This document shows positions 27,127 through 32,761 of a DNA stretch of 64,000 bases, one piece after another; position 1 is the stretch's first letter, and each line of letters opens with the position of its first letter. A model generated the notes under the pieces. That model saw only the letters and a program-made list of their open reading frames with translations, had not been told where the DNA came from and ran no database searches. Position numbers and translations under genes: made by a program. The DNA is from Methanoculleus thermophilus (lineage in GTDB: Archaea > Halobacteriota > Methanomicrobia > Methanomicrobiales > Methanoculleaceae), in assembly GCF_001571405.1 (NCBI RefSeq), contig NZ_BCNX01000006.1:372001-436000 (forward strand), read 5' to 3'.

Positions 27127-28878
27127 CTACTGCCGTCTCGTTCCCGGGTGGGCAAACGAGCGGTTGTGGACGGCCGCCCGGTAGGGCACCCCGTAGAAGC
27201 GACGGTAGAACCTGTCTGCTTCCTCCTCAATCCTGAAGGCGAAGAGGTCGGGGTGGAGGGCGTTTGCGATCGTCATCAGGCCGAGGATCCATCGGGGACT
27301 CCCGAAGTCCCATGACGGGTGCATTGAGTAGACCCGCTGGTTCTGGACCGCCGGCACGTCGAGGCCGTGCTCTGCGCAGTAGCGGAGAGTATCTTCCACC
27401 GAGGAGGTGAGGAACCCCGACGTGAAGAGATACTCGGGTTCGAGCGCGACGAACTCCTCCCGTGAGATGGTGACGCCCGGTTTACCCTCCCGGCCGATCG
27501 CCCGGTTGACGTAGATCCCGCCGGCGGCCTCCACGAGTTTTCCTTCGAGCCTGCCGGGGTTGAGGGCGAAGAGCGGGTGGCCCATGGCGTAGAATACCCG
27601 GGGGCGCGGCGCGTCCGCAACCCGTCCCCTGATGTAGTCCAGCCGTTTCCGGATGTAGCCGGTGAGTTCCCGCCCCTCCTCCTCGCGGCCGGTCCGGTGA
27701 GCAAGGTCCATGATGAGGTCCAGGTATGCATCGATGTTGTTCATCCGGTCATGCAGTTCCCGACCAAGCATCCCGCTCTGGAGCACCCCGCCCCAGATCC
27801 TGGCAAGGTCCGCCCGGTCATCGACGCCGAGGCAGGTGAGGATTGCCCAGACCATCTCAAGCCCCCTGGTCGCCCGGTATCCTCCCATCATCCCGGGCTC
27901 GTAATAGACCTCGGGACTGACAGAACCCCGGACCGGGATGGTTTGGCCGCAGTCGCAGACGATCTGCGCCTTCCCTGCGAGATGCGAACCCATCGGGCCG
28001 AAGAACTCGCGCTCGATGCAGGGCTTTTTGCATGCCGGGCAGAATGTCGTCAGGTTCGCAGTCCCCGGCGAGTTGAAGAGGTAGACCCAGGGGAGGATAT
28101 CGCGGAGCCGGTCACAGAGCTCCTCGCCTGCGTAGATCGTCGGCTCCTCATCGAGCCCCGCATCGCCGAAGGGGACAAACCGCATCACCTGGAGAGGGAT
28201 ATCCGGGGAGATTGCTGCAATCTTTCGCGCCACATCAAGCACCTCATCCTCTCCGTCCCGGCGGTAGACGACCGAGGCCTCGACATGCACCCCTCCTTCG
28301 TGAAGCAGCCGGATCGTACGAAAGACCGGTGCGGCACTCCTTGCACCGCAGGCACGGTAACTTTCGTCGGTTGTTCCTTTAAGCCCGATACTGACAAAAT
28401 CTGCCCGCTCGCAGAGTCGCAGAGCGGATGCTTCTGTCATGTAGCCGTTCGTGGAGCAGCCGACGGAGAGCCCCTTCTCCCTTGCCCTCTCTGCGAGCCT
28501 GCAGAACGTCGGGAACGAGACGATCGGGTCGTTCAGCGCGAAGGCGATCCCGGTGCAGGCCTGATCATTCGCGAGGCGGAGCAGGTCGTCGGTCGTGAGG
28601 GCCGTCCCGGATGCTGCAAGCGGTTCGGCATGCTCAACCAGCATCTCCGAGACACACCCCCCGCATGAGAGGTTGCATCCGACCGTGCAGACCTGGAGGA
28701 CCTTCGCGCCGGGAAAGAAGTGGAGCACCGGCAGCGTCTCGATCGCAACAGGGAACGCAGCAAGGAAGGCGTCTGGATACCGTTCAACGATCCCGGTGCC
28801 GTTGTTCTCGTACATCCGGCACCTGCCGACTCCCCCCTCGGGGATATCGCATCCGACCTCACAGATCTCGCACTTCAT
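27127..28878 (-). CDS. Radical SAM protein fused to a periplasmic-binding-protein (FecB/BtuF-like) domain
   Basis: 583 residues, no signal peptide. N-terminal cysteines (C3, C6, C10, C20, in CEICEVGCDIPEGGVGRC) resemble the AmmeMemoRadiSam/PflA-like lead. The radical SAM cluster motif is C68-x3-C72-x2-C75, with an extra C64. A barrel follows to about 275, then a second cysteine cluster (C280, C283, C287, C308, C310). Residues about 328-575 match a type III metal-chelate binding protein: LEMVWAILTCLGVDDRADL, the long connecting helix (YIRKRLDYIRGRV) and LVEAAGGIYVNRA, then VYSMHPSWDFGSPRWILGL. Last gene of the chelate-transport operon, so a cytoplasmic chelate-processing role is inferred. Confidence 0.85.
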   Translation of the reverse strand: MKCEICEVGCDIPEGGVGRCRMYENNGTGIVERYPDAFLAAFPVAIETLPVLHFFPGAKVLQVCTVGCNLSCGGCVSEMLVEHAEPLAASGTALTTDDLLRLANDQACTGIAFALNDPIVSFPTFCRLAERAREKGLSVGCSTNGYMTEASALRLCERADFVSIGLKGTTDESYRACGARSAAPVFRTIRLLHEGGVHVEASVVYRRDGEDEVLDVARKIAAISPDIPLQVMRFVPFGDAGLDEEPTIYAGEELCDRLRDILPWVYLFNSPGTANLTTFCPACKKPCIEREFFGPMGSHLAGKAQIVCDCGQTIPVRGSVSPEVYYEPGMMGGYRATRGLEMVWAILTCLGVDDRADLARIWGGVLQSGMLGRELHDRMNNIDAYLDLIMDLAHRTGREEEGRELTGYIRKRLDYIRGRVADAPRPRVFYAMGHPLFALNPGRLEGKLVEAAGGIYVNRAIGREGKPGVTISREEFVALEPEYLFTSGFLTSSVEDTLRYCAEHGLDVPAVQNQRVYSMHPSWDFGSPRWILGLMTIANALHPDLFAFRIEEEADRFYRRFYGVPYRAAVHNRSFAHPGTRRQ

Positions 28879-28884
28879 CCGTCG

Positions 28885-29526
28885 TCACTTCTCCATGATT
28901 ATCCAGAACCCGGCCTCGTCCTCAAAGACCTTGTATGCCGGTATCTTCGCCTGCTCCAACTCCCGGCGGATGAGATCCCTGTTTCCTCTCGAGAGTCGTT
29001 CTGCAGCCTTTACCTCCCACTCGGGGTCTATCTCGCGCATCTTCTCCGTAATTTCTGCCTTCAGGGCGGGAGTGCCGAATCCTCCGCCGACAAACGTCCT
29101 CCCGCCGGGCCGCAGCACCCGCGCGATCTCGGAGAACGCCCGCACCCGGTCGTCCCAGAAGAAGAGCGAGCCGCGGCTCACGATGAGATCGATGGAGCCG
29201 TCGGCGTAGGGGAGGTTGTGGACATCGCCGCAGACCGGGCGTACGCGCCCGATGAGCCCGGCATCCTGGAGATTCCTCCGTGCGATCGAGAGCATGTCGG
29301 TCGATGCGTCAAGAGCGTCGATGGCGAGATCGCTTACTGCCGCGAGCGCCATCGCGAGGTGTCCCGGCCCGCATCCGATATCGACGCACCTGCCTTCGCG
29401 GATCCTGCAGGTATCCAGGATCTGCCGGGCGATTGTCGGATATATCGGCGCAAAAGGTCCTTTCGCGATGGCGTCCATCCTTCTGGCACCTTGGCCGGTG
29501 AACTGGTCGTCTGATTTCTCGGTCAT
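28885..29526 (-). CDS. Class I SAM-dependent methyltransferase (transport operon)
   Basis: 213 residues from ATG 29526, which overlaps the stop of the ABC ATPase gene (ATGA). Motif I is VDIGCGPGHLAMALAA (about 48-63), then DALDAS, VCGDVHNLPYADGSIDLIVSRGS and IARVLRPGGRTFVGGG. The fold is UbiE/COQ5-like; no metal-binding or substrate-specific motif is seen. Six bases separate it from the radical SAM gene. In this operon its substrate may be the imported chelate or its ligand, which is inference. Confidence 0.85.
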   Translation of the reverse strand: MTEKSDDQFTGQGARRMDAIAKGPFAPIYPTIARQILDTCRIREGRCVDIGCGPGHLAMALAAVSDLAIDALDASTDMLSIARRNLQDAGLIGRVRPVCGDVHNLPYADGSIDLIVSRGSLFFWDDRVRAFSEIARVLRPGGRTFVGGGFGTPALKAEITEKMREIDPEWEVKAAERLSRGNRDLIRRELEQAKIPAYKVFEDEAGFWIIMEK

Positions 29527-30320
29527 GGTTTCACCCACCCTGCCACAGGTACGCAGATCTGCCGGTTGATCGGATCGCCGAGGTTTACAATCCTAACATC
29601 GGTGCCGTAGGCACGACGCATCGTATCCTCGTTGATAACCTCATTCGGACCTCCCATAGCAAGAATTCTTTGATTTTTCAGGATTGCAACCTGGCTTGAC
29701 GTCAGAAGTGCGTGATCGGGGAAATGGGTCGCGACAACAATGGTCATTCCGTCCTCTGCGAGTCCCCTGATGACGTTGAGCACCCGTACCTGGTTACCGA
29801 GGTCCAGGTGGGACGTCGGTTCGTCGAGGAGAAGGATCCCCGGACGCTGTGCGATCGCCCGCGCGATCAGGACAAGCTGCCACTCGCCGCCGCTGATCTC
29901 GGTGCACGGTCTTTCGGCGAGGTGAGATATGCCGATCCGGTCGAGGGCGTCAGCAGCAATCTCTTCATCCTCAGATGAGGGAGTTGAAAAGGGGCCGAGA
30001 TGGGCTGCTCTCCCCATGAGGACGATGTCCCTGACAAGGAACGGGAACGGCGAGACCTGTGTCTGGGGGACGAACCCGATCCGCCGGGCAATCTCGTGCG
30101 GCTGCATTCCTGCGATGTCATGCCCATCGAGGAGAACGCGGCCGTGCGAGGGGGAGATGAGCCCTGCCATGCACTTGAGAAGCGTGGATTTTCCGGTCCC
30201 GTTCGGGCCGAGAAGCGAGTATACGCACCCCTCATCCACGGTGAGCGTGATGCCCGTAAAGACGGGGGCTCCGCCCGGGTAGTTGAACGTTATATCCTCT
30301 ACGCTGATACGGCTTCCCAT
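29523..30320 (-). CDS. Iron-chelate/cobalamin-type ABC transporter ATPase (FecE/BtuD-like)
   Basis: 265 residues from ATG 30320; a longer reading frame to 30683 lies over the permease gene and is rejected. Walker A GPNGTGKST (about 36-44), Q-loop FVPQTQ, signature ISGGEWQL, Walker B GILLLDEPTSHLD and switch His in VATHFPDH. The closest subfamily is FepC/BtuD, paired with FecCD permeases. It starts two bases after the permease stop. Confidence 0.93.
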   Translation of the reverse strand: MGSRISVEDITFNYPGGAPVFTGITLTVDEGCVYSLLGPNGTGKSTLLKCMAGLISPSHGRVLLDGHDIAGMQPHEIARRIGFVPQTQVSPFPFLVRDIVLMGRAAHLGPFSTPSSEDEEIAADALDRIGISHLAERPCTEISGGEWQLVLIARAIAQRPGILLLDEPTSHLDLGNQVRVLNVIRGLAEDGMTIVVATHFPDHALLTSSQVAILKNQRILAMGGPNEVINEDTMRRAYGTDVRIVNLGDPINRQICVPVAGWVKP

Positions 30321-30322
30321 GC

Positions 30323-31426
30323 TCACCACCCCGGGTTGTTGCGCCGGAGCAGCACTGCAAATATCGGCGCCCCGATGACCGCCGTCAGGATGCCGATCGG
30401 GATCTCGGCAGGGGCGGCCGTCCTTGCGATGGTGTCGACGGCAATCAGGAACGCTCCCCCGAGGAGCACCGAGACCGGCAGAAGGTAGCGGTTGTCGGGT
30501 CCGACAAGCATCCGTCCCATATGCGGGATAACAAGCCCGATCCACCCGATGATCCCGCTCAAACAGACCGCTGCTGCTGTGATCACGGTCGAGAGGAAGA
30601 TGATGATAGCCTTCAAGTGCTCGGTGTTCACCCCGAGCGCCCGTGCCTCCTCGTCGCCCATCGTGAGGACATTGATTCGCCACCGGACGGCAAGCAGTCC
30701 TGCTATCGAGACGATGATGATCGGGCCGAGGATCATCAGGTCCGACGCCGAGACGTGGTTGAGCGACCCGAGCAGCCAGAAGACGATCGCCGGCATCTTG
30801 TTCATCGGGTCGGCCACGTACTTCGCCATGGAGGTGAGGGCCGAAAAGAGCGATCCGATCACGATACCTGCGAGAACGAGCATCAGGATCGGGGTCGAGC
30901 TCCTGACCCTGCTGAGCGCATAGGCCATCCCCACGGCAAGCAAGCCGAAGACGAACGAGAGAATCTGGACGAGAACGAGACTGTCCAGGAGGAGGATGCC
31001 AATCGCCGCTCCAAAGCCCGCGCCGGAGGCCACGCCGAGGATCTCAGAGGAGACCAGAGGGTTCCGGAACATCCCCTGGAATGAGGCCCCGCTGATGGCA
31101 AGACCCGCTCCGACGAGGAGGCCGGCGATGATCCGGGGGATACGGACGTCCACGATGGCTGAAGTCGCCGTCGCTGCCCAGGTCATCTCGATCGGGTAGA
31201 CCGAACTTATGATTGTCGCGATCACCGTCTCCGGTGGGATCATATACCGGCCGGCCATCAGGGCGATGAAGATAACAACCCCGAGCACGCCGAGGAGGAG
31301 CACCAGGATGGTGCCGGGGTGCCGCTCCCCCCAGCTCCTGCTGGTGGCCTGGTTTGCCACCGCCGTCCCGGTCACCGTGGTTCCCCCATCGGTCTGTACA
31401 CCGGTCTTCGTTGGTCTCTGTCTCAT
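30323..31426 (-). CDS. Iron-chelate/cobalamin-type ABC transporter permease (FecCD family)
   Basis: 367 residues, about ten membrane segments after a 35-residue cytoplasmic start. FecCD family signatures: DVRIPRIIAGLLVGAGLAISG, then FQGMFRNPLVSSEILGV (the binding-protein contact and gating region), and GIIGWIGLVIPHMGRMLVG near the C-terminus, a coupling helix. It forms a homodimer with the ATPase. Start overlaps the binding-protein stop by four bases. Confidence 0.93.
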   Translation of the reverse strand: MRQRPTKTGVQTDGGTTVTGTAVANQATSRSWGERHPGTILVLLLGVLGVVIFIALMAGRYMIPPETVIATIISSVYPIEMTWAATATSAIVDVRIPRIIAGLLVGAGLAISGASFQGMFRNPLVSSEILGVASGAGFGAAIGILLLDSLVLVQILSFVFGLLAVGMAYALSRVRSSTPILMLVLAGIVIGSLFSALTSMAKYVADPMNKMPAIVFWLLGSLNHVSASDLMILGPIIIVSIAGLLAVRWRINVLTMGDEEARALGVNTEHLKAIIIFLSTVITAAAVCLSGIIGWIGLVIPHMGRMLVGPDNRYLLPVSVLLGGAFLIAVDTIARTAAPAEIPIGILTAVIGAPIFAVLLRRNNPGW

Positions 31427-32532
31427 CCGAGCTGCTTCACCTGGCCGAACGTCACGCTCCCATAGGTGCCGTCGATGACCTTCTGCGCCTGCTCATCCGT
31501 GAGGGTGAACCCGAAGATCTCGGCGTAGAAGTCCTTCACCCGGTCGGTGAGCGGCACGTCCTCGAAGCGGTCGGGGTAGGCCTTGTACGCGAGCCAGACC
31601 GGGTAGAGGACGGCGGACTCGGCGGACGGACGGCTCCAGAGGAAGAGTCCGGTCGGTTGCTTGTAGACCCGGCCTTCTTTGACGGCACTAAGTTCCTTCC
31701 AGCGGCTGTCGTTCTTGAGTTCAGCGGGACTGCCGGTATCGATGATGATGATATCAGGGTCGGCGGCAAGGACCTGCTCCATCGAGATCTCGTTGATACC
31801 GGTGTGGATACCCTCCTGCTGTCCGTGCGTCGTCTCGATGGTGGCTACGGCGTTTCTGCACCCTGCAGCCGCGGTCCACTCAGTGAAGAACGTGTCTCCT
31901 CCAAGTGTCTGAAGGTGGCTTACTCCCTCGCCGAGGAAGACGGTGACCCGCTCGTCCTCGGGGATGTTGGCGGTGCGCTCACGGAGGAACTCGAGTGTCT
32001 CGTTAAGGTAATCGATGTAAGCCTGCGCTCTATCGGGCTTTCCGAAGACCTCGCCCATGAAGGCGATCTCCCGCCGCATCTCATCGAACCCGTCGCTCAT
32101 TGTCCCGGAGAGGTAGATGACCGGAATATTGGTGTGAGATTCCACGATCTCCCCGTCGACGTCGAAGGCAATGACGCAGTCGGGGTTCGTAACCAGGAGT
32201 TCCTCGATGTTCACGTTGCCGTTCGTCGTCCGCGGTGCCGGTTTATCGATGATGCCCGGGTCCATCTCCTGCATCATCTCCATCAGCTGCGGTCCCTTCG
32301 TGACTGCAATGACACTGTCATTCGCTCCAAGGAGGTAGGGCACCTGGCTGATGGGCCCGCCGAAGACGGCGAACGTCGCTCCTTCTGCGGGGATTGTGAT
32401 CTGGTTTCCCACCATATCGGTGATCGTTCGGGTCGCAGCCGGATCCTCCGGCATCGTTGTTGTCGTGCAACCGCAGCAGAGCATTCCTGCCGCAATGATG
32501 AGTGCAAAGAAGACATAACTGACTTTTGTCAT
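31423..32532 (-). CDS. Metal-chelate-binding lipoprotein (FecB/BtuF-type substrate-binding protein)
   Basis: 369 residues. A hydrophobic leader ends in a lipobox-like MLCCGCTTTT (about 17-26), so the mature protein is probably lipid-anchored outside. Two lobes joined by a long helix: TITDMVGNQITIP, ISQVPYLLGANDSV, VNIEELLVTNPDCVIAFD; helix AYIDYLNETLEFLRER; second lobe AVKEGRVYKQPTGLF and SAVLYPVWLAYKAYP. The ligand (siderophore, cobamide, heme) is unknown. First gene of the operon 32532-27127. Confidence 0.9.
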   Translation of the reverse strand: MTKVSYVFFALIIAAGMLCCGCTTTTMPEDPAATRTITDMVGNQITIPAEGATFAVFGGPISQVPYLLGANDSVIAVTKGPQLMEMMQEMDPGIIDKPAPRTTNGNVNIEELLVTNPDCVIAFDVDGEIVESHTNIPVIYLSGTMSDGFDEMRREIAFMGEVFGKPDRAQAYIDYLNETLEFLRERTANIPEDERVTVFLGEGVSHLQTLGGDTFFTEWTAAAGCRNAVATIETTHGQQEGIHTGINEISMEQVLAADPDIIIIDTGSPAELKNDSRWKELSAVKEGRVYKQPTGLFLWSRPSAESAVLYPVWLAYKAYPDRFEDVPLTDRVKDFYAEIFGFTLTDEQAQKVIDGTYGSVTFGQVKQLG

Positions 32533-32649
32533 CCTTAAACCTCTGTAGTTACTCTACAGCGGAGTATGCCTGTTTTAATGCAAAATCCGCTGAATAGGGG
32601 AGAAATTTCGATCTGGATGAAGAAAACAGTTGCCTTTTTCTGTCGGGTA

Positions 32650-32663
32650 AATTAGTTCTAATT
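32650..32663. promoter_or_regulatory. Palindrome AATTAGttCTAATT in the chelate-operon promoter region
   Basis: Perfect six-base arms with a two-base centre, lying between the binding-protein start (32532, minus) and the Lon-like gene (32762, plus). The TTAG...CTAA core resembles operators of DtxR/MntR-type metalloregulators, which include TTAGGnnnnCCTAA forms. The operator role is inferred. Confidence 0.4.
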
Positions 32664-32761
32664 AACCAGAGGTGATCGCGGCCGCCGGACCGGGAAATGG
32701 CACCTCTACTGACGTATCCCTGGAAAGGTATATATCTAAACGAATAATACCAGGGCACCGT

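Follow-up and report, generated by a model that had tools for sequence, protein, structure and literature searches.

We analyzed a 64,000-nucleotide stretch of the Methanoculleus thermophilus genome (contig NZ_BCNX01000006.1, positions 372,001 to 436,000 of the forward strand; "the window" below), which contains a five-gene operon on its minus strand, from 32532 to 27127 (Table 1). The operon encodes an ABC importer, a methyltransferase that depends on S-adenosylmethionine (SAM), and a radical SAM protein that is fused to half of a binding protein. The metal that it serves is probably molybdenum or tungsten (Mo/W), and not iron, heme, or cobalt.

An importer operon that ends in a radical SAM fusion

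All five open reading frames (ORFs) lie where a first-pass annotation of this DNA had placed them, in the order and with the four-base overlaps and small gaps that it had described. The first three junctions (binding protein/permease/ATPase/methyltransferase) are 4-bp overlaps, and 6 bp separate the methyltransferase gene from the radical SAM gene. Pfam agreed with the families that had been named: FecB-FecC-FecD type, class I methyltransferase, and radical SAM. As a Peripla_BP_2 binding protein, a FecCD permease, and an ABC ATPase are encoded together by overlapping genes, the importer is of the FecBCD/BtuFCD type (type II) by gene content, and it is predicted to transport a metal chelate. 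For the methyltransferase, the top NCBIfam match was the DVU_1556 family, at 59 bits, which is under the cut-off of 155. No known RNA elements, tRNAs, or tmRNA were found within the window.

Table 1. Features of the operon and of its upstream region, in window coordinates
Feature	Coordinates	Strand	Evidence and remarks
FecB-type substrate-binding lipoprotein, 369 aa	31423..32532	-	PF01497 4e-22; lipoprotein-type N terminus
FecCD-family permease, 367 aa	30323..31426	-	PF01032 1.7e-84
ABC ATPase, FecE/BtuD type, 267 aa	29523..30326	-	PF00005 4.7e-33; GTG start, 4-bp overlap with the permease stop
Class I SAM-dependent methyltransferase, 213 aa from ATG	28885..29526	-	Methyltransf_11 1.7e-24
Radical SAM fusion protein, 583 residues	27127..28878	-	Radical_SAM PF04055 1.3e-11 and PF01497 6e-10
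Radical SAM domain of the fusion, residues 1-320	27919..28878	-	PF04055 1.3e-11; AlphaFold2 model
Half binding protein of the fusion, residues about 385-565 (linker helix, C-lobe, C-terminal tail; no N-lobe)	27184..27726	-	PF01497 6e-10, Foldseek, hhalign
Operator-like inverted repeat GTTAATTAGAACTAATTTAC (GTTAAT-N8-ATTAAC, 1 mismatch)	32647..32666		114 bp upstream of the binding-protein start

The last gene does belong to the radical SAM superfamily (a CX3CX2C motif lies inside the Radical_SAM domain), but its second half had been missed: the protein joins a complete AmmeMemoSam-like radical SAM enzyme to part of a FecB-type binding protein, namely its linker helix and C-lobe. The Peripla_BP_2 match covers residues 383-521 of the fusion and only the second half of the profile (positions 93-233). 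When we aligned this half to the operon's own binding-protein family with hhalign, the probability was 99.9 (E = 4e-32), with homology up to the C-terminal tail. In an AlphaFold2 model made with 21 homologues (pLDDT 87.5, pTM 0.87), the radical SAM domain is followed by a helical stretch (332-396), a long linker helix (399-419), and the C-lobe. Foldseek matched the second half to 4hn9 (2e-10), as well as to binding proteins for iron, molybdate, nickel-histidine, B12, and heme, and it matched the first half to NifB and to the pyruvate formate-lyase activating enzyme. The cysteines of the CX3CX2C motif (C68, C72, and C75) are invariant in 80 sequences, and together with N-terminal cysteines (C3, C6, C10, and C20) and a C-terminal cysteine ribbon (C280, C283, and C310), they are 99-100% conserved among the 80 fusions. 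The nearest described family for the N-terminal part is AmmeMemoSam (TIGR04337), with similarity over residues 1-316, but the fusion scores 105.3 bits against a cut-off of 220, and its homologues score 82-121 bits, so these all fall below the threshold of that family. Because we saw no export signal by eye, and because cytosolic SAM is needed, the fusion is presumably located in the cytosol.

The first-pass annotation had linked the importer to the two SAM-dependent enzymes, and noted that this link would be accidental if the enzymes lay away from any FecBCD transporter in most related genomes. Full-length fusions are carried by many of 100 relatives, and in a scan of named species, we kept 80 fusion loci, 29 of them bacterial, from 125 relatives. 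There are at least 80 such loci in named genomes from the Methanomicrobiales, Methanosarcinales, Desulfobacterota, Bacillota, Deferribacterota, and Spirochaetota (we take the phylum of each genus from general knowledge). Among the 66 loci in named genomes with enough flanking sequence, 55 have a methyltransferase within 6 kb of the fusion, always on the same strand; 52 have FecB and 45 have FecCD within the same distance; and for 61 out of 79 loci, no more than 60 bp lie between the fusion and a methyltransferase gene on the same strand (some neighborhood counts rest on a simple ORF caller and on contigs with short flanks). The grouping is thus conserved in archaea and in several bacterial phyla, and we rejected the idea that the five genes are neighbors by accident. 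The methyltransferase and the fusion are the core of the system. The order of the genes varies: binding protein, permease, ATPase, methyltransferase, and fusion in Methanoculleus; binding protein, methyltransferase, fusion, permease, and ATPase in Methanosarcina and relatives; and permease, ATPase, binding protein, methyltransferase, and fusion in Pelotomaculum. That the content is constant while the order is shuffled is strong evidence for a functional unit. The system appears to be widespread in anaerobes, and there was no matching locus in a Methanococcus voltae pyrite proteome.

Regulatory elements and neighbors shared with molybdenum and tungsten genes

The inverted repeat in Table 1 recurs ahead of orthologous operons, where its position and spacing are kept. 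We chose the pattern GTTAAT-N8-ATTAAC by eye from the promoters of those operons and searched for it across the genome with at most one mismatch (a longer form was scanned within the window only). There were four sites in the genome (2.22 Mb), while the reversed control pattern had none. One site is the repeat upstream of this operon. The other three lie within about 10.4 kb of each other in a Mo/W transport island: one is 22 bp before a TupA-type gene; one precedes WtpB/WtpC-type genes; and one immediately follows a UMP-kinase-like gene and stands 49 bp ahead of the gene preceding a second tupABC. Of the five FecCD loci in the genome, only this operon has the motif. In relatives, it is also found before modA (L190), before a second set of FecCD, methyltransferase, and FecB genes (L191), and inside a tup/mod cluster (L187). 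Within the window, another palindrome, CTGTAG-AGTAA-CTACAG, lies immediately ahead of the start codon, but it is not conserved in orthologues and we dropped it.

The island itself is outside the window (G000:C6:463000-482000, or L161). It holds two tupABC sets, the WtpB/WtpC-type genes, a MOT1 molybdate permease, and the UMP-kinase-like protein, which could be for Mo storage.

For the 29 bacterial loci (about 500 kb in all), an Rfam scan identified seven molybdenum cofactor (Moco) riboswitches (RF01055) and two Moco-II RNAs. Given the background of 110 riboswitch sites in about 70 Mb, we would expect about 0.8 across the flanking DNA and about 0.007 within 300 nt upstream of the 29 operons. 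The riboswitch lies directly upstream of homologous operons in relatives of Syntrophomonas: it is about 160 nt before the permease gene in L108 and L110 and about 260 nt before the binding-protein gene in L114. In L126, it follows the fusion gene by about 26 nt. In Pelobacter (L143), a pair of Moco-II RNAs heads a cluster that encodes a TonB receptor, an importer, FmdE, a methyltransferase, and the fusion. The riboswitches of L110, L114, and L126 carry the P3 stem, which is associated with Mo rather than W (Regulski et al., PMC2408646). In L110, we saw a possible terminator hairpin after the aptamer by eye, which the terminator scanner did not report.

The neighboring genes point to the same metals. 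ModABC genes adjoin the methyltransferase-fusion pair in an archaeal locus (L031) and in Clostridium thailandense (L111), and FmdE is present in four homologous loci (L143, L144, L147, and L149). DUF364 is often present in homologous loci, although it is absent from the window genome, and Miller et al. (PMC2954201) describe genes for the transport of tungstate and molybdate in its context. The best solved relative of known ligand for the operon's binding protein is the molybdate-binding protein MolA (HI_1472; 1e-19). On three independent lines of evidence (the shared motif, the Moco riboswitches and Moco-II RNAs, and the ModABC, FmdE, and DUF364 neighbors), the link to Mo/W is well supported. 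Because the motif in this genome and the Moco riboswitches in homologues are shared with established Mo/W genes, we place the operon in a Mo/W acquisition regulon. The first-pass annotation had suggested a corrinoid, heme, or siderophore as the imported chelate, and the regulatory and neighborhood evidence points away from these. After the riboswitch and motif results, we set aside heme, corrinoid, and iron as leading candidates.

Some Gram-negative versions of the system include TonB-dependent receptors (L143 and L149) or TonB (L118 and L144). TonB systems serve large, scarce ligands, and simple oxyanions would not need them. Because of these genes, we infer that the imported species is a large chelate and not the free oxyanion. 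Tup and Wtp importers are also encoded in this genome, so a chelate operon would be a supplementary source of the metal.

A proposed role in opening metal chelates, and its alternatives

Enzymes that contain Mo or W are essential to methanogens, syntrophs, and sulfate reducers, and these metals are expected to be scarce in sulfidic settings. To our knowledge, only oxyanion importers of Mo/W are well known in anaerobes. We slightly favor the view that this is a Mo/W acquisition operon of anaerobes that imports a chelate, captures it on the fused half binding protein, and alters the ligand to free the metal; this is also the most economical model. The lipoprotein and the FecCD/ATPase importer would bring chelated Mo or W into the cell. 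In the cytosol, the chelate would be received by the C-lobe of the fusion, whose radical SAM domain sits on the N-terminal side, where the N-lobe is absent. The radical SAM center and the co-translated methyltransferase would then alter the ligand chemically, for instance by radical cleavage, and by methylation of donor oxygens or sulfurs so that the ligand cannot re-bind. The freed Mo/W would go to cofactor synthesis. Computation established the operon and the fusion, the conservation of the co-occurrence, and the sharing of regulatory elements with Mo/W genes. It is our inference that the ligand is held by the half binding protein and is what the enzymes act on; the chemistry is less firmly placed than the metal. 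The first-pass idea that the enzymes open or modify an imported chelate without oxygen is plausible and is strengthened by the fused half binding protein, with the reaction itself being a prediction. A more specific version, which we put forward tentatively, is that the radical SAM barrel and the captured C-lobe clamp the chelate between them, that it is chemically opened there, and that the methyltransferase blocks the freed ligand. This would be an oxygen-independent way to release metal from Mo/W metallophores, common to methanogens, sulfate reducers, and syntrophs.

Several observations weigh against chelate opening by a Mo/W operon. Upstream of the Methanosarcina operons and most of the bacterial ones, the motif is weak or missing, and some copies in three genomes (G047, G012, and G017) precede large ORFs for surface proteins. 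The methyltransferase-fusion pair is sometimes alone, with neither an importer nearby nor the motif (L084 and L086-L089), and at L039 an Opp/Nik-type ABC importer and a THEP1-like NTPase, in place of FecBCD, are encoded ahead of the fusion gene. Part of the riboswitch signal reflects one lineage: Syntrophomonas genomes have 10-15 Moco riboswitches each, three Syntrophomonas-type loci give much of the signal, and two of our loci (L108 and L110) are near-identical. The subfamily matches of the FecB and FecC proteins are generic (the BtuC-like match, at 240 bits, is below the cut-off). Residues that are conserved in the binding-protein family (E202-G203 and W299-x-R301-P302) differ from MolA in a comparison of those positions. 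Finally, both the ligand and the reaction are predicted.

The strongest rival, which we still consider unlikely, is that the enzymes (with DUF364 and an O-methyltransferase where present) make or tailor a Mo/W metallophore or pterin-like ligand, which would leave the cell, be loaded, and return through FecBCD. All of the Mo/W regulatory evidence fits this equally well; richer operons hold DUF364, an O-methyltransferase, and a deaminase-like gene; and the paper on the DUF364 crystal structure proposes the synthesis of a flavin- or pterin-like chelator (PMC2954201). However, DUF364 is absent from the window genome, where the operon offers two enzymes and no exporter, and the binding-protein lobe on the enzyme suggests that an imported species is handled. 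It seems even less probable that the operon salvages a molybdopterin-type cofactor or its breakdown product, with import of the pterin-dithiolene and recycling of the pterin-dithiolene or the metal. Moco riboswitches control homologous operons, a NifU_N-MOSC protein is encoded near the pair in L111, and there are FmdE neighbors, but we found no Moco biosynthesis gene in the operon itself, and the Moco riboswitch equally controls plain molybdate transport (PMC2408646). Both of these alternatives to chelate opening stay live, and regulation alone cannot separate them from it.

We also doubt the earlier proposal of uptake and anaerobic opening of heme, a corrinoid, or an iron siderophore, at about the same low probability as cofactor salvage. 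FecBCD transporters mostly carry such ligands, and the TonB receptors of homologous loci score highest against siderophore, heme, and B12 models. Nevertheless, the regulatory elements are those of Mo/W genes both in the window genome and in bacteria, the motif marks only one of the five FecCD loci, and no cobalamin riboswitch was found in the 29 bacterial loci scanned with Rfam. The analogy to anaerobic heme use fails at the level of the family, as the NCBIfam hits of the fusion include no HemN-, ChuW-, or HutW-type model. It is similarly improbable that the methyltransferase and the fusion act on a protein or tRNA and that co-regulation is their only tie to the importer: the pair does occur alone in some genomes, and we did not find a substrate for AmmeMemoSam in openly licensed papers, but this would leave unexplained both the fused half binding protein and the repeated association with three types of importer (FecBCD, ModABC, and Opp/Nik-like).

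Related systems and variants

We did not find a description of this system in the openly licensed literature, so, as far as those papers go, it is undescribed. The closest parallels differ in part. The molybdate/tungstate importer MolBCA (HI1470-1472) is also of the FecBCD type, is linked to Mo, and has a binding protein that belongs to the same structural group as the one here, but it lacks a radical SAM protein or methyltransferase. The AmmeMemoRadiSam enzyme (TIGR04337) resembles the radical SAM part of the fusion over its full length, but our fusion has half of a binding protein attached and is encoded beside FecBCD and a methyltransferase. The anaerobic degradation of heme by ChuW/HutW is alike in outline, with a radical SAM enzyme next to an importer of a chelate; it involves another radical SAM family and another metal than is indicated here. 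The clusters of DUF364 (PF04016), a putative heavy-metal chelation family, form the same neighborhood in several relatives and have ABC importers and Mo/W links (PMC2954201). TupABC, WtpABC, and ModABC are oxyanion importers that are unrelated to this one and have no processing enzymes, although they share the upstream motif in the window genome (Tup- and Wtp-type genes) or adjoin the pair in relatives (ModABC). A Mo/W-controlled importer with a radical SAM/methyltransferase module suggests that anaerobes use organic chelates of Mo/W and open them without oxygen. It also offers a testable function for a large, unassigned radical SAM family, for its unusual fusion to half a binding protein, and possibly for DUF364.

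The fusion gene has several variants. Some Methanoculleus genomes have two convergent fusion genes (L066, L070, and L041), and in the second type, the binding-protein half has lost its conserved GKPG and WDFGSP motifs. A few Methanoculleus genomes (L097, L041, and L042) have a fusion gene that is split by a frameshift or stop, from decay or assembly error. Sister systems (L043-L046, L104, L107, and L113) have an unfused radical SAM protein (about 335 aa) beside a protein of about 390-425 aa that has no Pfam match. L043-L046 also encode a binding protein of 736-774 aa, with two Peripla_BP_2 domains in L043.

The motif also turns up elsewhere in relatives. In L185, L186, L195, and L196, copies are near large secreted or surface proteins with phrases such as FINVSN. 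An identical element, GTTAATAATAACCTATTAAT, is conserved in four relatives (L179, L183, L189, and L194), and in the three that we inspected (L179, L183, and L189), it is upstream of an apparent WecB-type epimerase gene.

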